From Niastella populi (lineage in GTDB: Bacteria > Bacteroidota > Bacteroidia > Chitinophagales > Chitinophagaceae), in assembly GCF_002078015.1 (NCBI RefSeq), contig NZ_LWBP01000067.1:142692-206691 (forward strand): a stretch of 64,000 nucleotides of DNA. The letters are read 5' to 3'. The notes beneath the pieces were generated by a model. The model made no database searches. It saw only the letters and a program-made list of their open reading frames with translations, and was not told the DNA's origin. Of this stretch, positions 18,897-29,275 are shown piece after piece (position 1 is the first letter of the stretch; the number at the start of each line of letters is the position of its first letter). Made by a program: the position numbers and the translations under genes.

Positions 18897-21800
18897 TTAC
18901 CTTATTTCTACCTCTACCCCATCGTTCCAGTATTTGTATTCGGGCGTATAATACAGGTAGGCATTGCTGGCTTTTGCTTTGTAGGTACCCGCTATTTCCG
19001 CTTTAAGATCGAGCCGGATGGTTTTTGTTTCATCGGGCGCAAATCCCATCCAGTACAACACCAGGTAATTATCGAAAATTTCATAATAGGCCACCTGGTC
19101 TTTTTCCATCAGTTCTTTCAACTGCCAGGGTTGTACCGATAAACCCGCAGGTATGCCTATTTTGGCAATGGCCATTGGCTGCAACAGGTTTTTGGTGTTG
19201 GTGACCCCGATATCCATCCGCATGGTTTCACCCACTTTTGTTTGAGCAGCCGCCAGCCTGGTCGTAAGCTTAAGCTCCGCTTTTTCGCTGTTTGGCGGTG
19301 TAAACGTGTTGTACGCTACCTGCAGACTATAGGGCACAGCGGAAGCCTGTTCCTGGAATTGAATACCGAATACGTTCTTACCTTCATTAACAACCGCATT
19401 AAAAGTACTGTCGGTACCAACAGTGGTTTCGTTCATTGTAAATGTAATTTGCGGGTTCTCGCTTACTTTACTTATAAGCTTTGAATATTCAACGATCGCT
19501 TTTAACGCCAGCACCGTGGCCTGTGTTGATCCATAGCCATAATAAGATTTTTCGGTAAGTACCTTCGTTATCAGGTTGGCTATTATACCTATCTCTGCCG
19601 GGGGTTCACGCATCAATGCAAGCGCATAGAGCGCAGCGGTTTCGACCCGCAATGAGGCGTCGCGCGAATTCACCACACTGGTTTGCGAAGCAAGGCCATT
19701 CTTTTGATAAGCCGTTTGCAGCGCATCCATCAGCAGCCGGTAATCACCGGTTCTTTTCATATTCGAAGCGGCCAGTGCCATCATGGCCATCTTGTAACCA
19801 TCGCTACATTCCAATGCATGTTTAAAAGCCGCCTCGTATTCGGGTACGATCTCTTTGCCAATACCGGCCTGCGTCAATGCATATACAATGTAAATGTTGG
19901 CAATCTTGTCAGGCACAGAAGCAAAACGGTCGTACCCGCCTGATGATAATTTAAAGGAACCATTGCCATCGCGGCGCCTTAACAGAAATGCCTTTGTTCT
20001 TTCGAGCATCTTTTTATTTACATCGACAAACTCCTGCATATCGGTGAACTCGAGCAACCCATAAGCGGTTAGCGCTTCATGCGGCGGCGTTTTGCCAAAC
20101 CATTCAAAACCATCCATAGCCGTTTCAAAACCAATCAATCGCCGGTAGCCTTTCTCAATGTAATCAAGCGCTTTTTTTTCTACGGCGGGGTTTACTATTT
20201 TCGATTCACGCAGGTATTTCAGAATAAAAACATTCGGATAGGTGGAAGAAGATGTTTGCTCAAAACAACCATAAGGCTCCCGCAGCATAGACTCTATACC
20301 ATCGAGCAGTTGTCCTTCCAGTGTTTTAAACAACTTCAGTTCGGTGCGTATACTGCCGGCCATTGCATTATTGATTGTAAACTCATGCAGCCCCGTTCTG
20401 TTGCCCGACAGGGTTTCTATTACCGGAAATCCTTTTTCGGCAACCGTTACAGGCAGCTTTACCGTTTCTGTTCTTTGACCGGTTTCAACCACAAACTCAA
20501 TAATACCGGTATCGGCAGCCATTGCTTTTATGGGTATCAGCAATTGCTGCGAACTGTCGGCCGGTAACCGGATAGTACCGGGAAATGAGCCCGTTTTCAA
20601 CCCCGGAGGCAACGTTACAGTCACGCGAACGGTAGCGTCCTGTATACTGTTATTTTTTATGACCAGCGGTATCAGCGCATGATCGCCAACTGATAAATAA
20701 GGCGGAATTTTGGCATCTACCTGTAATGCGTTCTTTGTAATATAGGTATGTTCTGCCCGGCCGGCCTTTCCATTATAACCGATGCCTTCGGCAATGGCTC
20801 TGAAAGTAGTATTGGCATCCGAATTATAAAACTCCACCCGGGCTGTGCCCGTCTTATCAGTTTGTATAACCGGGTTCCAGTAAATGGTTTCTCTGAAATC
20901 GGTGCGCGCCTGCGGATAGATAGAAAGATATTTGGGTGCATAAAACCGCCGGGCAGCTTTAAATGCAGGCCCATCGGCTGTACGTACCACCTGTGAAGCA
21001 AAATATTCCGTTGCAGGCAGATCGATGCGGAACCCGCCATATTTTGTCTTTTTAGTAGATACGATAATAACGCCAAAAGCGGCGCGGCTTCCATATATAG
21101 CTGTGGCCGTAGCGTCTTTCAAAATTTCTATGTTGTCTATATCACCTGCTTCCAGCGCGGTGAGGCGATAATGTGCGGCCGGTACGCCGTCAATTATAAT
21201 AAGGGGTTCCTTGCCTGATGCTATTGAATTGACGCCACGGATCTTTACATTTTCGGCTGTTCCTGCAATTCCATTTACCGGGGTTATATTCAAACCAGCC
21301 ACCCGGCCCTGCAGCGCTGTTAAAACGTTGGGTGCAATACCGGCACCCTTAAATATGCCTATATTTCCTGTGCTCAGGCCTTTTGTTGAAGTTCCATAAG
21401 CGATAACAACAACCTCATCGAGCTTGCCAGGTTTTATATTATCAAACAAACCCGTCATTGGCTGTTTCTCTTTATCAGCCGCCTGCGGCGCCATTAATTG
21501 CCTTACCCGTGTAGTAGGCGATAGTGGCACAACGGCATCTCCATTGCCTTTTGTATACAGGAGTTGGCTGCCATCGCCTTTTTTGATGGGATTATAACCA
21601 ATGCCATTTTGCGTTATTTTGATATTTATTTTTTCTCTTTTATTGTATGATTGGGCAATTACATAATAATCACTTTTCGGGTAAAGCTGTGAAAAAAAGA
21701 ACACGCCGTCGTCGCCGGTCTTATACAGGATGGCCCTGCCGCCAGTGACATGATGCACGAGGAATACGGAAGCCTTAACCGGTTTTTGTTTAGTATTTAC

Positions 21801-23441
21801 GACAACCCCGCTTAGCACATGCGGCTGATCGGGTTGAAAAACCAGGTCGCCGTTTTCTTCCACCGCGGTAGTATAATCGAAATACCGGTAACCGTGCGTA
21901 AGCATAACGAGATCAAGCGCTGCAGCCGCAAGCGGCTCTTCTTTTTTGAAATAGAAATTCGGTTCTTCTATCTTCCCTTTCAATTCTGAGCTCATCAATA
22001 ACCAGGAAAGGATATTATCCTGCCGGTCATCGGCGAGGGTCCATAATTTGTCATCCAGCACGGCGAGTGATAAATTAGCCGGCACCGGGTTCCCCATTTC
22101 ATCAAACGTTTTCAATGTTAGGGTAACTTTTTCGCGGGGCAAATATTTGGGTTTATCCGTGCTAATGCCTACTTGCAGGTTCTTTTGACCGTTCAGAAAG
22201 ATCAGCCGCTCCGCTACCGGTAAATTATCATCGGTAAATAATGTGAACCGCGCAATTCCGGCCGGGAACTTATTATTATCGATGGCGATCGTATTTTCAC
22301 CAGCCTGCACGGTTATCTTCTCAGTATAACAAGGGGTATTCTTGGTTTGCGCTACCAGCAACACCTCTCTTATTTGGGTAGAAGCTATTTTAACCGTCAA
22401 CTCTTTACTATCGGCATTGGTAATCTTCATGACCATACCATGTGCCGATGCCGGCGGCAGGGGGAATGGTTGTTTAATATTCGCCGGCGTGGTAATAGCG
22501 GCGCTATAGATTTCGTTCTTTTGCGGCGTAAAAGTAAACTTTCCCATCCCAAAACGCAGGCTTTCAAAAGCGGCTACTTTATTACCCCGGCTGTCAAGTA
22601 CCGCCCCTTTTACATCAACCGGTTTTCCATGTTCGTTTACTGCCCTGAACGCCATATTACCGGTAATTCCCTGTACCAGGGTTCCGCCTTCGGGCATAAA
22701 CTGCAGATCGATCTTATTAAGCACAATGGGAATACTTCTTGAAACCGATTCGGTATAGGCATCGTAATGAACGGTGATGTTCAACAACCCATCGGTAGTG
22801 TTTAGTGTTTTTGGAAGTGAAAAACGCAGCAGGGCCTTTCCCCGGTCATCGGTTTGAAAAATATCTGATCGTACTACTTCACCACCAATTGATACCTTAA
22901 AGCTGGCCACTTGATTACGTATGGGCAGGTTATCGAGATTGCGCATGGAGAAATCGGCTTTTACCTCATCACCAGCGCCATAACCTTTTTCGGGAAAGTC
23001 GAGTTTCATCAATACCCGCGGCGCTATCACTTTCATCAACGTGATCTCCTTTACAAAAATGGTATTTTCATTTTCATTACGCATCCAGGTGGTATAGGCT
23101 TTAATTTTATACATACCGCCGGGCGCCTCTTCGCTAAAATCAAAAGAACCTTCGGCGTAACCGTTCTCTATTCCATAATTCATCTTCTGCACTACATTTC
23201 CCGAAGGACCCAGTATTTCTGTATAAACTACATTGCTAAGGAACGTTGGTCGCTGGCTGTTGGCATTAACCACATATATTTTGAAATACATGGTTTCGCC
23301 GGGGTTAAAAAAAACATGGCTGGTTTGCACATATACTTTTTCCTTCGTGTCGGCATACTGTATCTTTTGCGCCATACACAATACCGGATGTAAAGAGGCC
23401 ATGCTCAGTAACAGCAAACAAATATTTATCGTTTTTTTCAT
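18897..23441 (-). CDS. Alpha-2-macroglobulin-like protein with an internal TonB plug domain
   Basis: The protein has 1514 residues; the ATG at 23441 starts a signal peptide (MKKTINICLLLLSMASLHPV). An MG2-type macroglobulin domain comes first (VYVQTSHVFFNPGETMYFKI), with further MG domains to ~530 and a carboxypeptidase-regulatory-like domain at ~537-620. Residues ~672-800 are a SusC-type TonB plug: DEVVVIAYG, LQGRVAGLNI, IRGVNSI, IIIDGVP and IEILKDATATAIYGSRA. Then come the A2M domain, the thioester-bearing alpha-toroid with GCFEQ at 1058-1062, and a C-terminal receptor-like domain. There is no beta barrel after the plug. The start lies 4 nt after the stop of the upstream barrel gene, so the two are probably translationally coupled. 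The thioester suggests covalent capture of a protease or protein; how the plug acts is unknown. Confidence 0.88.
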   Translation of the reverse strand: MKKTINICLLLLSMASLHPVLCMAQKIQYADTKEKVYVQTSHVFFNPGETMYFKIYVVNANSQRPTFLSNVVYTEILGPSGNVVQKMNYGIENGYAEGSFDFSEEAPGGMYKIKAYTTWMRNENENTIFVKEITLMKVIAPRVLMKLDFPEKGYGAGDEVKADFSMRNLDNLPIRNQVASFKVSIGGEVVRSDIFQTDDRGKALLRFSLPKTLNTTDGLLNITVHYDAYTESVSRSIPIVLNKIDLQFMPEGGTLVQGITGNMAFRAVNEHGKPVDVKGAVLDSRGNKVAAFESLRFGMGKFTFTPQKNEIYSAAITTPANIKQPFPLPPASAHGMVMKITNADSKELTVKIASTQIREVLLVAQTKNTPCYTEKITVQAGENTIAIDNNKFPAGIARFTLFTDDNLPVAERLIFLNGQKNLQVGISTDKPKYLPREKVTLTLKTFDEMGNPVPANLSLAVLDDKLWTLADDRQDNILSWLLMSSELKGKIEEPNFYFKKEEPLAAAALDLVMLTHGYRYFDYTTAVEENGDLVFQPDQPHVLSGVVVNTKQKPVKASVFLVHHVTGGRAILYKTGDDGVFFFSQLYPKSDYYVIAQSYNKREKINIKITQNGIGYNPIKKGDGSQLLYTKGNGDAVVPLSPTTRVRQLMAPQAADKEKQPMTGLFDNIKPGKLDEVVVIAYGTSTKGLSTGNIGIFKGAGIAPNVLTALQGRVAGLNITPVNGIAGTAENVKIRGVNSIASGKEPLIIIDGVPAAHYRLTALEAGDIDNIEILKDATATAIYGSRAAFGVIIVSTKKTKYGGFRIDLPATEYFASQVVRTADGPAFKAARRFYAPKYLSIYPQARTDFRETIYWNPVIQTDKTGTARVEFYNSDANTTFRAIAEGIGYNGKAGRAEHTYITKNALQVDAKIPPYLSVGDHALIPLVIKNNSIQDATVRVTVTLPPGLKTGSFPGTIRLPADSSQQLLIPIKAMAADTGIIEFVVETGQRTETVKLPVTVAEKGFPVIETLSGNRTGLHEFTINNAMAGSIRTELKLFKTLEGQLLDGIESMLREPYGCFEQTSSSTYPNVFILKYLRESKIVNPAVEKKALDYIEKGYRRLIGFETAMDGFEWFGKTPPHEALTAYGLLEFTDMQEFVDVNKKMLERTKAFLLRRRDGNGSFKLSSGGYDRFASVPDKIANIYIVYALTQAGIGKEIVPEYEAAFKHALECSDGYKMAMMALAASNMKRTGDYRLLMDALQTAYQKNGLASQTSVVNSRDASLRVETAALYALALMREPPAEIGIIANLITKVLTEKSYYGYGSTQATVLALKAIVEYSKLISKVSENPQITFTMNETTVGTDSTFNAVVNEGKNVFGIQFQEQASAVPYSLQVAYNTFTPPNSEKAELKLTTRLAAAQTKVGETMRMDIGVTNTKNLLQPMAIAKIGIPAGLSVQPWQLKELMEKDQVAYYEIFDNYLVLYWMGFAPDETKTIRLDLKAEIAGTYKAKASNAYLYYTPEYKYWNDGVEVEIR

Positions 23442-23445
23442 AACG

Positions 23446-25974
23446 TTAGAATTGAATGGAGATGCTACAACCAAATGATTTTACAGAAGGAAGATTGAAA
23501 AAGTCGAGACCGGCGGCGCCCGGCAGATCATACAGCAGTTGATTGGGATCGGCGCCTTTGTAGGAAGAGTAAAGAACAAGGTTTTGTGCGTACAGGTTTA
23601 TTACCAGTTGCCGCTCATACTTTCCAAGCTTTAGTTTATAACCTACATTGATATTGTTCAACCGCAGCACATTGGCTTCCTGTATATATTCTTCCCCTAT
23701 GCCACTGTGACCGTAGCGCGTCCAGCGGCTTTGCTCAACCGGTTTGTTTACATCATAAAAACTTACCGGTTGGGTATTGGGTTGTTTATCCTGCAATACA
23801 CCGGCGAAAATATAACCTGTTGTATTTCTCGATTCGGCAGAAGAAGCCGAGCGGCCGTAATAGTCGAGCATGGCCTGCGTACCATTCCAGATCTGCCCCC
23901 CTTTACGCCACTCCCAGCAAAGACCGATCGAGAACATTTTCCAGGTGGCGTCATTAATCATCTTCATTACAAAATCAGGGATAGGGTTACCGATCACGGT
24001 AGGTGTATTGTTCACCAGCGGGAATCCGTCGTTGCCAATAAGGATATTATTATTTGCATCGCGTTGATAAGCGGTGCCAACGATACTGCCCAGTGCTGCG
24101 CCTTTTACAATAGCGGTATGTATATTGCTGAACCCGGCAAGGGGAGTATAGTCGTAGCCGGTATTTACAGCTGTTACTTTACTTCTATTAACGAAATAAG
24201 AGATGGTATTTTCCGTATTGAAGTACCGGTTGCTGGTCCTGCCGGTGAACCCCACCTCTACGCCGCTATTGCGGTGGGCGGCTATATTCCTGAGCACAAG
24301 TTGATTGTTTTCCATTACCGGAAAAACATCGTTGGCGGTTGTACGGCTAAATATATTCCCATACAGCACATGCCCTTTATATCCCAGCTCAACACGCCCA
24401 TTCCATTCATTGTGTTGTATCGCCTTCAACCCATCAAAGCCTTTTACTTCGGTTACAGGAAAGAACTGAAAAGCCTGTTGGATATTAAGTTGTAGTAAAC
24501 TGTTTGTCGAATAAGACCGCCCAACGGGAAGCTCGCTATTGAACCGGTTCCAGGAACCGCTTAATTTGAAGAAATAATAATCGCGGCCTGAATTATTCCC
24601 CCATCGTACAGCCCCGCTTACATGGGGAAGAAAATAATTATTGTTGCTGACGGTGTTGGAAACATACATTTTATTGGCAAGCTTCAGTACAAGGTCCCAA
24701 TTATATGGCTTGTACGAAATATCATAAAAAAGCGAAGCTTCCTGTGCAGAACGCTGGTAACGCCATGCAGCGGGCAGGCTGTACCTGATGACCGACCGGT
24801 TGTTTGCAAATTTATAATGCGTACCTGCCGTATTGATCAGTCTGTAATCATCGAAGTGAATATCGTAAGAGGCGGTGGCGTCAAGCAAATACGAAACGTC
24901 TTTTAGGTTACGGTCAACAGTAATACCGGTTGGAAAATATACGCTGCCCGGCTTATACCCTTCGCGGCTTAGTTGATACAGGTGTTCAACAGACTGGGTA
25001 AGCTTGAATTTGAACAGGTCGGTTTTCTTTTCCACTATCAAACTACCGGTTTGATGTGTTTGTACAAACCGGTTGCCGTTATTCAATAGCAGGTAAATAG
25101 CATTATCGGCAACCGGACTGTAAGTTTGCGGCACATTGGGTTGGCGGGCGTTGTGAACATTATCAAAACTTACCGGCGTCAGCATCGCATTCTGATAAAC
25201 GCGGTTCAAAAACCCGTTCCGGTTAGTATTAGATAATTCATCCCGCAAAAAACTATAACCTGCGGTAATACTCAGCTTTTTAAGGTTAGCATCCAACGTA
25301 GCCGATGCATTACGTGAAGTATTTTTATTGTATTTGATAAAGGTGTTTTCTGTGGAATGCCCCAGCCTGAATGTTGTACTGTACAAAACATTACCGGCAG
25401 ATCTTATTCGTGCGTTCAACCGTAATGATTGCAACAACATAGATGCCGTTCTGAAAACAGGGTTGTTATAATTATTAGCCGAACGGCCATTTCCCGTACC
25501 GGCCGCCACCAGTTTTCCGTTGGCATCGTAAGCATAATTGCCGCCATCGTATTCCAGGGACTGCGCTGCCGGCCCATAACTGAACGGTTCGCCTGTTTCA
25601 GCGCCACGCCATACAAGGGCGCCATTTTCTGACCTACCCTGTACGTATTGGTTTTGTACGGCCGGCAACCGGTTGATGCGTTTAACTTCAACCCGCGTAT
25701 TGAATTGTCCGGTCAGGTACAGCACCTTTTGATACTCAGGCTGAATGGTGAGCACGCCCTGTTTTATTCTGATGCGGCCTACCGTGAAGCCGTAATACGC
25801 TTTATTCAATAACAAATGCGCTTGCGAAAAATTATTCATGGTATCGGGCATGAACTTCATTACAGGCAAGGTATCTGCCTGTATCAGTTCCAGGTAATCT
25901 TTCGATAAAACGGGGGTCACTTCCTGCGAATAAGCGATCACAGGGAACAGGAGTACCAATAGCAGTCGTTTCAC
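23446..25974 (-). CDS. SusC-like outer-membrane beta barrel lacking the plug domain
   Basis: The protein has 842 residues, starts at an unusual GTG (25972-25974; an in-frame stop lies three codons upstream) and has a signal peptide (MKRLLLVLLFPVIAYS). After ~75 residues the sequence enters the region that follows the plug in SusC/RagA receptors (NRLPAVQNQYVQG, SYGPA, LEYDG). It runs through the barrel to a canonical end: ANVLRLNNINVGYKL, YAQNLVLYSSYKGADPN, and a C-terminal Phe. The plug segment with its DGVP and IEILKDA motifs is absent here but present in the next gene. The two genes are separated by 4 nt. As a plugless barrel it would be open unless plugged in trans. No SusD gene is nearby. 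Confidence 0.85.
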   Translation of the reverse strand: MKRLLLVLLFPVIAYSQEVTPVLSKDYLELIQADTLPVMKFMPDTMNNFSQAHLLLNKAYYGFTVGRIRIKQGVLTIQPEYQKVLYLTGQFNTRVEVKRINRLPAVQNQYVQGRSENGALVWRGAETGEPFSYGPAAQSLEYDGGNYAYDANGKLVAAGTGNGRSANNYNNPVFRTASMLLQSLRLNARIRSAGNVLYSTTFRLGHSTENTFIKYNKNTSRNASATLDANLKKLSITAGYSFLRDELSNTNRNGFLNRVYQNAMLTPVSFDNVHNARQPNVPQTYSPVADNAIYLLLNNGNRFVQTHQTGSLIVEKKTDLFKFKLTQSVEHLYQLSREGYKPGSVYFPTGITVDRNLKDVSYLLDATASYDIHFDDYRLINTAGTHYKFANNRSVIRYSLPAAWRYQRSAQEASLFYDISYKPYNWDLVLKLANKMYVSNTVSNNNYFLPHVSGAVRWGNNSGRDYYFFKLSGSWNRFNSELPVGRSYSTNSLLQLNIQQAFQFFPVTEVKGFDGLKAIQHNEWNGRVELGYKGHVLYGNIFSRTTANDVFPVMENNQLVLRNIAAHRNSGVEVGFTGRTSNRYFNTENTISYFVNRSKVTAVNTGYDYTPLAGFSNIHTAIVKGAALGSIVGTAYQRDANNNILIGNDGFPLVNNTPTVIGNPIPDFVMKMINDATWKMFSIGLCWEWRKGGQIWNGTQAMLDYYGRSASSAESRNTTGYIFAGVLQDKQPNTQPVSFYDVNKPVEQSRWTRYGHSGIGEEYIQEANVLRLNNINVGYKLKLGKYERQLVINLYAQNLVLYSSYKGADPNQLLYDLPGAAGLDFFNLPSVKSFGCSISIQF

Positions 25975-26151: not shown

Positions 26152-27186
26152 TCACCATATCTTCAAAGGGCACTCCACTTTCTCGAGGCTCTCTGCCAGT
26201 CTTTTCCATAAGCCTGTATAGGAGAGCGATAATTCAAAACCGCCCCTGAACTGTGATGCGGTAGTGAGTTTGCTGATATTGACATCATAACTAAGCCCGA
26301 TGCTCAACTGATGGGTGTACAACTTTATTATAGGAATAAACGCATCTTTCCAACGGAATGCACCGCCCACCGCAACAGATAAACTTCCTTCTTCACCATT
26401 CTCATCAAAACAATGGGTATACAGTCCCCCACCCTGCAACAGCTGGTTGCCGCCCTGGATGAACAGGTCGGTATAAAAAACGATCTTATCCATATTGTTG
26501 ATCCATGCAGACAGCCCGCCATTCAATCCCCATTTCCGGTTCAGCCGAACATCGTAGTCTTTTGTAAAGGCGATCTGCGGTTCCGTAATATGAAACAACC
26601 CGCCGCCTACATACATGCTTACATTATTGGTTACATTCGTTTTGAAACTTACGCCAACCGATGCATCCCAATAGGTAAAACCCGTACTGCCGAATTGCTG
26701 CCGGGTAGGGTTCGAAACACTGTAGGCGCCATTCACATACTGATCATCGAAGCGCAACTTCGAAACATCAAAATGTTCGTTGACGGCCCCGCCCATAAAT
26801 GCCAGCGAAAGAAAGGTAGTTTTATCGTCATTCAGTAATTTATGATAATTAACAACGGGAAATACCTGCGTGCGTTGCAGTTTTGAATCACCCGCCACGT
26901 CATTGGTTACCTGTAAACCGGTGGTTATAAAATCGCCTGTCGAAAACCCGCGCAGCATTTTACATTCTGCGCTCAAGCCCATTGTCCGGTATGGAACCGT
27001 TACGCTTTGCCATTGATTGCGGTAGGCGCCCGTAAACCGCATATTCCCATTAAAGATGCCTGCCAGCGCCGGGTTGCGCATCAACGGGAATTCATAGAAT
27101 TGCGAAAAGTGAATATCCTGGCCTTTCGCTACAGATACATGAAAGACCAGGTATATAAAAATACAACGGCGTAAATATGGGTACAT
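26152..27186 (-). CDS. PorP/SprF-family type IX secretion-associated membrane protein
   Basis: The protein has 344 residues with an N-terminal signal peptide (ends ...HVSVAKG). Directly after it comes QDIHFSQFYEFPLMRNPALAG, the hallmark beginning of PorP/SprF proteins, followed by GAYRNQW. The rest is rich in alternating aromatic strands, as expected for an outer-membrane beta barrel. SprF in Flavobacterium is needed for secretion of its neighbouring type B cargo, and genes of this family usually sit directly downstream of such a cargo. Here the gene is 82 bp downstream of the type B cargo at 27269-29275 on the same strand, so this protein is probably dedicated to that cargo. Confidence 0.9.
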   Translation of the reverse strand: MYPYLRRCIFIYLVFHVSVAKGQDIHFSQFYEFPLMRNPALAGIFNGNMRFTGAYRNQWQSVTVPYRTMGLSAECKMLRGFSTGDFITTGLQVTNDVAGDSKLQRTQVFPVVNYHKLLNDDKTTFLSLAFMGGAVNEHFDVSKLRFDDQYVNGAYSVSNPTRQQFGSTGFTYWDASVGVSFKTNVTNNVSMYVGGGLFHITEPQIAFTKDYDVRLNRKWGLNGGLSAWINNMDKIVFYTDLFIQGGNQLLQGGGLYTHCFDENGEEGSLSVAVGGAFRWKDAFIPIIKLYTHQLSIGLSYDVNISKLTTASQFRGGFELSLSYTGLWKRLAESLEKVECPLKIW

Positions 27187-27236
27187 ACAAATGAATTGTT
27201 CAGTTCATTGGTTTTTTCCGACTTGCCAGGCTGCAC

Positions 27237-27268
27237 TGCCTTCCGCGTTCCGCGTTGAGCGTTCCGCA
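27237..27268. repeat. GCGTTCCGC-type short array after the cargo stop codon
   Basis: TTCCGCGTTCCGCGTTGAGC and a further GCGTTCCGC copy lie immediately downstream of the minus-strand stop at 27269-27271. It is another stop-adjacent array, with a unit different from the others in the window. Confidence 0.55.
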
Positions 27269-29275
27269 TTATTTCAGCAGGGTAACATTTCCTTTATAGG
27301 TATTTATAAGATCATTCTCACAGATCACATCGGCTATATACACATATACTTCCGAAGGTCCTGTTTTACCGCGTACGCGCCCATCCCAGCCAAAGGCAGG
27401 ATCATTAGGCTGAAAGTTTTTCTTCTCAAACACCAGTTCGCCCCAGCGTGAAAATACCCTGAACGAACGAACCTGTGCAATGCCTTTACCGCGAACCATA
27501 AAAACATCATTCACGCCATCGGCATCGGGCGAAAAGGCATTCGGGATAAACACCTGCGTATTCAAACAAAAGGTCTTTATGTTCATGGAGTCGGCGCCCA
27601 CACACCCAAATTCATTGGTAACCGTAGCACGATACGTTGTGTTCCTTGTAACTGCAGCAACAGGCGTTGAACAATTGGTGCAGCTGAGATCATTTGATGG
27701 CGACCATTGCCATGTAACGATGGGCCCGTTCTGCGTGGAAGGCGCGAAATTATAGGTGCTGCCGGTTGCCATGGTTACATCAGGCCCTACATCAACCCGC
27801 GGTTTGGGATTTACCACCACTTTTATCAAAGCTGTATCTGTAAAACATGAATGCCCGTCGAACCCCACCACCTGGTAGGTAGTGGTTGTTTTCGGTGCTG
27901 CTACCGGGTTAGCAATATTGGCGCGGTTCAACCCCTGCGCCGGCGACCAGGTATATAGCCTCGCCGTTCCCCCCGCCTGCAGGTTCACAGTTTGTCCCTC
28001 ACACATACTTTGATCGGGTGAAACCGTTACATCTATCGGTTGAAAAACGGTGATGTTCATGGTGTCTTTGTCAATACACCCGCTTTCGATGCTGGTAACC
28101 GTAACCACATAGGTAGCTGGTTTGGGTGGCGTACCCACCGGCTGGGCCACCTGGGAGTCTGACAAAAAATCGGCGGGAAACCATTTGTAGGTAAAACCGC
28201 TGGCGGCAGGCGTGCCAATGGTTATGGGATGTTCAGGACAGATCACCGTATCGGGACCGGCATTGGCCAGCGGCAGAATGGGATAAATAAATGCCTGTAA
28301 GGTATCGCTGCAACCAAAACCGCTGTATGGGATAACGATCACATTTATAGTATTGATCTTTGGTGCGGGATCGAGCACCAGGTTTTCACCCGAGCCCAGC
28401 AACGTACTGAAATTGCCATCGTACCACCGGTATTCCTGGAAACCCGGCGGACCTGTAAAGCTGGCGATATTGGGATTACATTCATAATGCGCCATGGCCG
28501 TCACATCGCAGTCACCCACATCAACGTAGGCGTAGCCCCAATGCCCGCCCAGGGTACAATCGGCAGTCGTGAACTCCAGTTCCAGGGTTCTTCCGGCATA
28601 GGCCCCTACATTAATGAAAACCGATGACCAGCTCTTGTACTTAACCGAACCATCAACCGGAGATATCTTAAATCCCGGTAAGGCCGCGGTGGCAATATAT
28701 TCGTTGGAAGCGCAGGGAAGGTATTGACTGGTTTGCACATCTTTCATGCGGGCAATGAAGCGCGGTTGTTCATTCTTATTGTGGCCGGGATCCTGGAAAA
28801 CCACGGCGTACCGATACGTAAATGACGCATTTTTCGCATCGGCCGGTACGGTGAACTGATAGGTGATGCGTTCCGCTTCACCCCCTTTTACATTATTACC
28901 CAGCCGCATGGCAAAACCACTGCCATCGGGCGGGTTCACAGGGAATAAACCGTAAGGATCGACGTCGGTAGCGGCACCCTTTGCATATAGGGTATGCCTG
29001 CCTGTGACCGGGCTGGAAGGAGTTACAGTTATCGCATTATCGTTGTTCTCCACCGAAGTGGAACCAACATAACATTTCCAGTTATCCAATGCGCCGGCTT
29101 CAAAATCAATATTGGCGGGACAGGAGCCTGCGGCTTGTTTGTAGTTTGTGGTTTGTTGCTGATGGTTGGTGGTTCCCGTTTTGGAATTCACCATTGACCA
29201 TTGACCATTCACCGGTTGTGCCCAGGGATATGGCAATAGGAAGACTGATACGAATAAGGTAAAAATCCCTTTCAT
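27269..29275 (-). CDS. T9SS type B cargo with Ig/PKD-like repeats
   Basis: The protein has 668 residues with a signal peptide (MKGIFTLFVSVFLLPYPWA). Residues ~22-46 are a low-complexity insert (NGQWSMVNSKTGTTNHQQQ and more) encoded by short tandem repeats. A lectin-like beta domain follows (~50-255: CPANIDFEAGALDNWKC ... FTTADC), then three or four Ig-like modules with the CEGQTVNLQAGG and DLSCTNCSTPV signatures. The C-terminal type B sorting domain carries IPNAFSPDADGVNDVF, FSRWGELVFE and WDGR. The final modules are close relatives of those in the giant PKD protein at 51294. The PorP/SprF gene just downstream is its probable export partner. The ligand is unknown. Confidence 0.88.
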   Translation of the reverse strand: MKGIFTLFVSVFLLPYPWAQPVNGQWSMVNSKTGTTNHQQQTTNYKQAAGSCPANIDFEAGALDNWKCYVGSTSVENNDNAITVTPSSPVTGRHTLYAKGAATDVDPYGLFPVNPPDGSGFAMRLGNNVKGGEAERITYQFTVPADAKNASFTYRYAVVFQDPGHNKNEQPRFIARMKDVQTSQYLPCASNEYIATAALPGFKISPVDGSVKYKSWSSVFINVGAYAGRTLELEFTTADCTLGGHWGYAYVDVGDCDVTAMAHYECNPNIASFTGPPGFQEYRWYDGNFSTLLGSGENLVLDPAPKINTINVIVIPYSGFGCSDTLQAFIYPILPLANAGPDTVICPEHPITIGTPAASGFTYKWFPADFLSDSQVAQPVGTPPKPATYVVTVTSIESGCIDKDTMNITVFQPIDVTVSPDQSMCEGQTVNLQAGGTARLYTWSPAQGLNRANIANPVAAPKTTTTYQVVGFDGHSCFTDTALIKVVVNPKPRVDVGPDVTMATGSTYNFAPSTQNGPIVTWQWSPSNDLSCTNCSTPVAAVTRNTTYRATVTNEFGCVGADSMNIKTFCLNTQVFIPNAFSPDADGVNDVFMVRGKGIAQVRSFRVFSRWGELVFEKKNFQPNDPAFGWDGRVRGKTGPSEVYVYIADVICENDLINTYKGNVTLLK
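29130..29215 (-). repeat. Short tandem repeats inside a coding region
   Basis: Two microsatellite-like runs, GTTTGTGGTTTGTTG near 29136-29158 and CCATTGACCATTGACCATT near 29190-29210 (plus strand), lie in frame in the cargo gene, directly after its signal peptide. They resemble the short arrays found between genes and translate to a Gln/Thr/Asn-rich linker. Confidence 0.6.

Follow-up and report, generated by a model that had tools for sequence, protein, structure and literature searches.

A plugless SusC-type barrel and a macroglobulin carrying a SusC-type plug form a conserved gene pair in Bacteroidota

The window, by which we mean the whole 64,000-nucleotide stretch of Niastella populi DNA analysed here, holds two adjacent genes on its minus strand. 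The first (25974 to 23446) starts with GTG and encodes an 842-residue protein ending in ...SISIQF, and the second runs from an ATG at 23441 to 18897 and encodes an alpha-2-macroglobulin (A2M) of 1514 residues. As the initial annotation had noted, only 4 nt separate them, the TAA stop of the first gene being followed by CGTT and then by the ATG of the second. The 1525-residue open reading frame listed for the macroglobulin begins at an upstream TTG within the barrel gene. The pair has the following features:

23446 to 25974, minus strand: gene for a plugless SusC-type outer-membrane barrel, 842 residues, GTG start; matches profile TIGR04056 over positions 214-981 only, and no Pfam domain
25729 to 25926, minus strand: residues 17-82 of the barrel protein, its N-terminal part, largely of low model confidence
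23449 to 25728, minus strand: residues 83-842, which form the barrel itself with about 22 long strands
23442 to 23445, minus strand: CGTT gap between barrel stop and A2M start, 4 nt
18897 to 23441, minus strand: gene for a plug-bearing thioester A2M, 1514 residues (Pfam, NCBIfam)
23367 to 23441, minus strand: A2M signal peptide, residues 1-25, of cleavable type and without lipobox (by inspection, pattern-based)
21822 to 23366, minus strand: N-terminal macroglobulin domains, residues 26-540 (Pfam MG2)
21582 to 21821, minus strand: CarboxypepD_reg-like domain opening the bait-site insert, residues 541-620 (weak Pfam match, stronger in relatives)
21405 to 21422, minus strand: TonB box LDEVVV, residues 674-679 (matches VDEVVV of Bt1763)
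20997 to 21389, minus strand: SusC-type plug domain, residues 685-815 (Pfam Plug, TIGR04056, TIGR04057)
20322 to 20894, minus strand: post-bait macroglobulin region starting FRETIYW, residues 850-1040 (Pfam A2M)
19452 to 20321, minus strand: thioester domain, residues 1041-1330 (Pfam TED_complement, 3.9e-27)
20256 to 20270, minus strand: thioester motif GCFEQ, residues 1058-1062 (from the sequence; GCxEQ in relatives)
18900 to 19451, minus strand: C-terminal macroglobulin domains, residues 1331-1514 (sub-threshold A2M_recep/bMG10 matches; fold match in a model of residues 425-1514)

Upstream of the pair, at 26152-29275 of the window, lie a PorP/SprF gene and a gene for a CHU_C (T9SS signal) protein; among the part of the loci that was scanned, a PorP/SprF gene is also found upstream of the pair in Niastella caeni.

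Our analysis bears out the claim that the barrel protein enters the SusC fold behind the plug and lacks the plug itself. Its residues 90-842 correspond to positions 214-981 of the 981-position NCBIfam profile for SusC/RagA proteins (TIGR04056), at 81.5 bits and thus below the curated cut-off of 368.25, and no Pfam domain matches it at E <= 1. No plug was detected in it by Pfam, NCBIfam or a plug HMM of our own, which matches none of 121 barrel proteins and all of 121 macroglobulins (the window's proteins plus the 120 listed of each). An AlphaFold model of the protein is of SusC type, with 22-23 long strands by count, and its alignments with known SusC structures begin only past the plugs of these (BT1763 over 210-1016, BT2264 over 170-984 and RagA over 233-1017). 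A CarboxypepD_reg domain occurs near the N-terminal stretch of the barrel in three of four orthologues scanned from other families, and none of eight barrel proteins scanned has an STN domain.

In the macroglobulin, Pfam places an MG2 domain (residues 35-126), a weak CarboxypepD_reg match (543-600, E 0.022), a Plug domain (704-791, 1.3e-13), an A2M domain (852-942) and a thioester domain (1047-1319) that includes the CXEQ motif in the form GCFEQ; GCxEQ is present in all 120 listed homologues. The MG2, A2M and thioester matches exceed their Pfam cut-offs. A SusC-type plug inside a thioester macroglobulin had indeed been proposed for this gene, although the extent given for it (about 672-800) was off, the TonB box and plug together spanning about 674-815 with the motifs LDEVVVIAYG at 674-683 and YGSRA at 783-787. 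The bait region of other macroglobulins precedes the post-bait A2M domain. At this position the window protein has the CarboxypepD_reg domain, a linker and the plug, which comes before FRETIYW (849-855), where the Pfam post-bait domain opens; A2M_BRD gives a weak match (E 0.15). The plug therefore appears to occupy the bait-region site, judging from domain order and general knowledge of the family. A model of residues 425-1514 (pLDDT 68, pTM 0.44) matches the folds of A2ML1, ECAM and complement C5, including entries 5a42 and 4u48, with the plug at low confidence (about 50-70) and the linker before it (622-693) predicted to be disordered (pLDDT about 23-37).

Placed on the TIGR04056 profile, the two proteins are complementary, with macroglobulin residues 673-815 covering positions 77-222 and the barrel protein 214-981, an overlap of about nine positions. 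The same division is seen in a genome from a distant family (G929), where macroglobulin residues 667-822 correspond to positions 75-224 and barrel residues 202-951 to 213-981; for the barrels of two other genomes (G446 and G462), the best NCBIfam stretch is confined to the end of the profile (592-981 and 634-980, between a third and two fifths of its length). The earlier suggestion that the genes encode halves of one transporter is supported by these complementary stretches, and the pair taken as one has both a TonB box and a plug, each carried by the macroglobulin. By one pattern, a TonB-box-like hexamer stands at the start of the plug in 50 of 57 macroglobulins versus 14 of 20 own-genome SusCs; a narrower pattern finds it in 83 of 120 macroglobulins. 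In TonB-dependent transporters, the TonB box is located just ahead of the plug and both plug ends are periplasmic. Plug and barrel form one chain in every such transporter known to us, and separately made plug and barrel of FhuA can reportedly reconstitute transport in E. coli. According to the available text of PMC7782687, loss or mutation of the VDEVVV box of Bt1763 causes a levan growth defect resembling that of a SusD deletion, and plug density is missing from closed-state BT1763 barrels in vitro, which its authors read as plug displacement. A frameshifted or broken SusC in the window is ruled out both by the two intact frames, each with its own start and signal-like N-terminus, and by the presence of the same arrangement in distant genomes.

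The pair arrangement is not a product of chance. At all 14 loci showing both genes, the barrel gene comes before the macroglobulin gene and 3-5 nt lie between them (4 nt at 11 loci); the two genes stay together as a unit, and those flanking the pair vary between loci. Two conditions that would have refuted the initial annotation, a plug found in the barrel protein by profile search and a neighbourhood that is not conserved, did not occur. Searching 244 genomes of the family returned the barrel in 11 (E <= 1e-40) and close relatives of the macroglobulin (E < 1e-220) in the same 11, the two being adjacent in 10 and on separate contigs in G148. Two further family genomes have distant macroglobulins only (E about 1e-16 to 1e-18); one such distant protein is also encoded in G162, beside its close macroglobulin. 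Three more pairs, from two other families, were found among 395 genomes of the phylum (G446, G462 and G262), where four other barrel matches are ordinary SusC-length frames of 1046-1065 residues. The pair of G929 comes from one further family, which brings the total to four, and G370 has a close macroglobulin with neither plug nor barrel. Contig sizes tell the same story as the shared 11 of 244 genomes: 45 of 120 listed barrels lie on a contig of exactly the same size as that of one of 120 listed macroglobulins, compared with a mean of 0.3 and a maximum of 3 for shifted sizes. Plugless barrels thus co-occur with plug-bearing macroglobulins far beyond expectation, as had been envisaged. Named holders of the pair include Niastella and Ferruginibacter among the matches listed. 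The barrel frame of N. caeni (L028:8001-10531, plus strand; L029 is counted as the same genome) is divided into two overlapping frames, reflecting either an error or a real frameshift. Among the literature matches listed (for two of the searches the best 15 of 104 and the best 15 of 701, most subscription papers lying outside their scope), we found no account of such a pair.

A broader view of the macroglobulin subfamily shows how far plug and barrel travel together. A class-wide search returned the subfamily (E <= 1e-40) in 65 of 395 genomes, and 64 were scored after exclusion of a 300-residue fragment in G666: three have a plug and a plugless barrel, one (G935) has a plug without a neighbouring barrel, and 60 have neither by our own HMM. 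When all searches are pooled, the corresponding figures for 76 macroglobulins are 14, 1 and 61. The agreement between plug and barrel, perfect at the outset, was broken by G935 and then by Pfam scans of 12 of the 61 macroglobulins scored as having neither, in which L124 proved to have a divergent plug (7.7e-10) and L088 one that only just clears the cut-off (24.2 versus 23.9 bits). Seven of the 62 loci without a barrel show less than 3 kb upstream, including L124 with 1.1 kb, and may have a barrel beyond this range. In G935, no barrel is present on the entire 7.2-kb contig of the plug-bearing macroglobulin (L164/L170), nor is a plugless barrel found in seven further stretches of that genome with weak barrel matches, which proved to be SusC pieces with plugs, an uninformative 3' barrel fragment, or stretches with no match. 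The open reading frame upstream of this macroglobulin resembles an MlaE-type permease by eye. On the macroglobulin tree, plug and barrel each require just 2 changes, so their agreement reflects a few events kept over long divergence rather than many independent gains.

Other modules of the TonB system are found at the same site. Of 12 plugless macroglobulins scanned, 11 have CarboxypepD_reg at the bait site, and 4 of 76 have TonB_C there (with an HMM built from those four), suggesting that the bait site has gained TonB-system modules repeatedly. The four TonB_C (PF03544) matches fall at residues 846-922 of the L095 frame, 907-981 of L121, 852-925 of L124 and 764-839 of L147; none of these loci has a barrel in view, and L124 also has the Pfam plug. 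Shorter MG2 proteins of 796-825 residues, akin to the first half of the macroglobulin, are encoded in the window's own genome (G000, C13:122.7-125.0k, C226:3.5-5.8k and C67:40.5-42.8k), with no TIGR04056 match, no thioester-domain match and no plugless barrel adjoining.

The macroglobulin plugs are conserved much as SusC plugs are. Compared with 17 SusC plugs of the window's own genome, conservation profiles correlate with a Spearman coefficient of 0.68 over 138 columns, falling to 0.39 at a shift of 1 column and to 0.08 at 8, and the majority residue is retained at 18 of 20 positions that are near-invariant in SusC plugs. SusCs have a T-T motif where the plug joins the barrel; its first residue is retained in 6 of 57 macroglobulins and its second in 27, as expected with the joint gone. 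The plug is also the fastest of the macroglobulin domains compared, with non-synonymous differences 1.2 to 3.8 times those of other domains in four pairs, and sequence identity falls over the entire bait-site insert. A set of 57 pairs, which leaves out L028 with its divided barrel and P0003 (a 98% twin of the window) and includes the partial N. caeni record P0042, gave no sign of plug-barrel co-evolution by a crude test (partial Mantel -0.10 given the other macroglobulin domains), and barrel distances in this set track the macroglobulin body (0.95 with the N-terminal MG domains).

With regard to its origin, the window plug is 52% identical to a SusC plug of its own genome and 53% to the closest macroglobulin plugs, and it groups in a tree with two own-genome SusC plugs (SH-aLRT 86). 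The plugs of G114 and G185 are reciprocal best matches (47%), the orthologous plug being barely ahead of a SusC in one direction (1.1e-28 versus 4.7e-28). Given these orthologous best matches, we do not regard a swap of the macroglobulin plug for a resident SusC plug as established. SusCs, too, start with CarboxypepD_reg; with this domain opening both SusCs and the macroglobulin insert, recombination could have carried a plug from a SusC into a macroglobulin.

A related barrel also occurs fused to its plug behind a different large module. G929 encodes a 1623-residue chain (L183:3408-8279, minus strand) with the order CarboxypepD_reg, VIT, VWA, TonB box, plug and barrel. Its barrel reaches 373 bits when scored with the plugless-barrel HMM, as against at most 124 among 20 SusCs of the window's own genome, and the protein is 28% identical to the window barrel (E 1e-78). 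A protein identical to it is recorded from Dysgonomonas sp. 511, and many relatives have the same domain set. VIT-VWA-SusC relatives are found in Dysgonomonas, Bacteroides and others, as are shorter VIT-VWA-plug and VIT-VWA-TonB_C proteins, and with a VIT-VWA-plug protein as query, 11 of 295 genomes showed matches. The single chain, in which a large inhibitor-like module precedes plug and barrel, supports the same layout in two chains here, and its module would be periplasmic if the plug fills the barrel as usual.

Where the macroglobulin resides has been judged from its N-terminus and its plug. In 13 of 14 plug-bearing macroglobulins, 12-22 residues separate the hydrophobic N-terminal segment from the first MG domain, the spacing of the fourteenth being taken from an over-long frame, whereas 38 of 40 plugless relatives have a hydrophobic segment followed by a charged-rich linker of 29-56 residues (exceptions L125 and L126). 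The latter N-termini look like inner-membrane anchors with a linker, and the former appear typical of cleaved signal peptides, the typing being pattern-based and L122 intermediate. Neither an inner-membrane anchor nor a PBP1C neighbour is seen for the window macroglobulin, which by pattern has a short signal peptide and whose neighbours are the barrel gene and a 258-residue frame without a Pfam family. No lipobox was flagged by pattern in the plug-bearing macroglobulins (L033 and L077 were judged by eye), and Pfam finds no T9SS tail in the window protein. The lone plug-bearing macroglobulin of G935 has an anchor-like N-terminus by eye, which fits a periplasmic location for the barrel-paired ones. 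Because of plug topology, the signal peptides and the fused VIT-VWA-plug-barrel relative, the likeliest arrangement is a periplasmic macroglobulin held to the outer membrane by its plug. The surface machine of the initial annotation is thus disfavoured, given periplasmic plug ends, an ordinary signal peptide without a lipobox, the missing T9SS tail and the fused relative.

The two genes encode complementary SusC halves, and we suspect that a periplasmic macroglobulin inserts its plug into the barrel from the inner side of the outer membrane, a reading that we hold to be slightly better than an even bet; our confidence in its pore-gating half was lowered by a hair on account of the plugs in L124 and L088. 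The pair is best read as a predicted TonB-dependent transporter made of two polypeptides, with its plug incorporated into a covalent trap in the periplasm. According to this model, the macroglobulin's plug would close the barrel from the periplasmic side, and pulling by TonB on the macroglobulin's TonB box would cause the plug to leave or rearrange so that the pore opens. Alternatively, a protease may cut the plug or the preceding linker (622-693) and so free the plug. Less surely, proteins or proteases coming through the pore might then be captured covalently on the periplasmic side. Known A2Ms are triggered by cleavage or release of the bait region (PMC4498604 and PMC9352918, in the text available from each). 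Since the plug takes the place of the region whose release triggers other macroglobulins, its movement or cleavage may, with less assurance, be coupled to exposure of the thioester. A TonB-powered covalent trap is a tentative and rather unlikely extension of this model; in it, opening of the pore and firing of the thioester would both follow from action on the plug, whether by TonB force or by a protease.

Several alternatives must be weighed against this reading. The plug could be a free TonB-contact module working outside this barrel, the barrel being an open pore or plugged from elsewhere, as the TonB_C domains at the bait site, the plugs without a known barrel in G935, L124 and L088, the result of the partial co-evolution test, and the plug-like proteins without barrels encoded ahead of the pair in G446 and G462 might suggest. 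At all 12 loci fetched where the contig continued, however, the plugless barrel is never apart from a plug-bearing macroglobulin, the plug is under constraint equal to that of canonical SusCs, and an open plugless barrel of such size would be expected to leak; we consider this alternative unlikely. A barrel that exports or anchors the macroglobulin for work on the cell surface seems to us very improbable. In Myxococcus, protease secretion depends on Oar, a TonB-dependent transporter (available text of PMC6434023), but plug ends are periplasmic in known transporters, no lipobox or sorting tail was recognised, and the pre-plug module of the fused relative could lie outside only if the plug did not fill its barrel in the normal manner.

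A further alternative, which we rate as improbable, is that the pair is an outer-membrane sensor of a protein or protease that signals through an anti-sigma factor, with trapping or import not its main task. ECF sigma genes do lie within about three genes of the pair at 4 of 13 non-window loci (L034, together with FecR, L077, L079 and, divergently, L078), and sigma-controlled SusCs are known (PMC7782687, available text). Against such a role, those neighbours that were scanned at the window and the remaining loci include no sigma gene, and the barrels scanned have no STN domain. Two other genes near the pair deserve mention. Between the ECF sigma gene and the barrel at L079 (4891-7206, plus strand) lies a gene for a 771-residue protein with a plug, a VWA and a T9SS sorting domain, and at L077 (4623-5093, plus strand) the corresponding interval encodes a secreted-looking protein of 156 residues with two plug-like end motifs.

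If the TonB-powered trap is real, pore and trap would form one machine that catches proteins on entry to the cell envelope. A natural two-chain transporter would allow plug exit, TonB pulling and pore opening, a long-argued question, to be examined with separable parts. For bacterial macroglobulins, whose role is mostly inferred, it would also define where they act and what triggers them. Taken together, the pairs, the macroglobulins with TonB_C or a plug only and the VIT-VWA fusions suggest a wider habit in Bacteroidota of placing protease-inhibitor-like modules on the TonB system.

The pair differs from the SusC/RagA transporters BT1763, BT2264 and RagA in that its TonB box and plug lie on a separate polypeptide. 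Among the neighbours scanned, no SusD family member was found. The VIT-VWA SusC proteins share with it a related barrel and a large module before the TonB box and plug, but they are single chains and their module is VIT-VWA rather than a macroglobulin. The T9SS translocon is built on a different barrel, SprA. An analogy, and no more, can nevertheless be drawn, as a separately encoded plug helps to close its pore, which is open in a delta-porV delta-plug background (available text of PMC12611786). Type I bacterial A2Ms, such as E. coli ECAM and Salmonella Sa-A2M, likewise have MG domains, a thioester domain with CXEQ and the same fold, but the window protein has CarboxypepD_reg and a plug at the bait site and a signal peptide of cleavable type. 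The partner of Type I A2Ms is PBP1C (available text of PMC4498604 and PMC5764988), and that of the window macroglobulin is the barrel. MagD of P. aeruginosa, a type II A2M, differs from the window protein in lacking the thioester and in being tied to the inner membrane through MagB, but, in a manner similar to that proposed here, it is a periplasmic macroglobulin held to a membrane by its operon partner (available text of PMC5764988).
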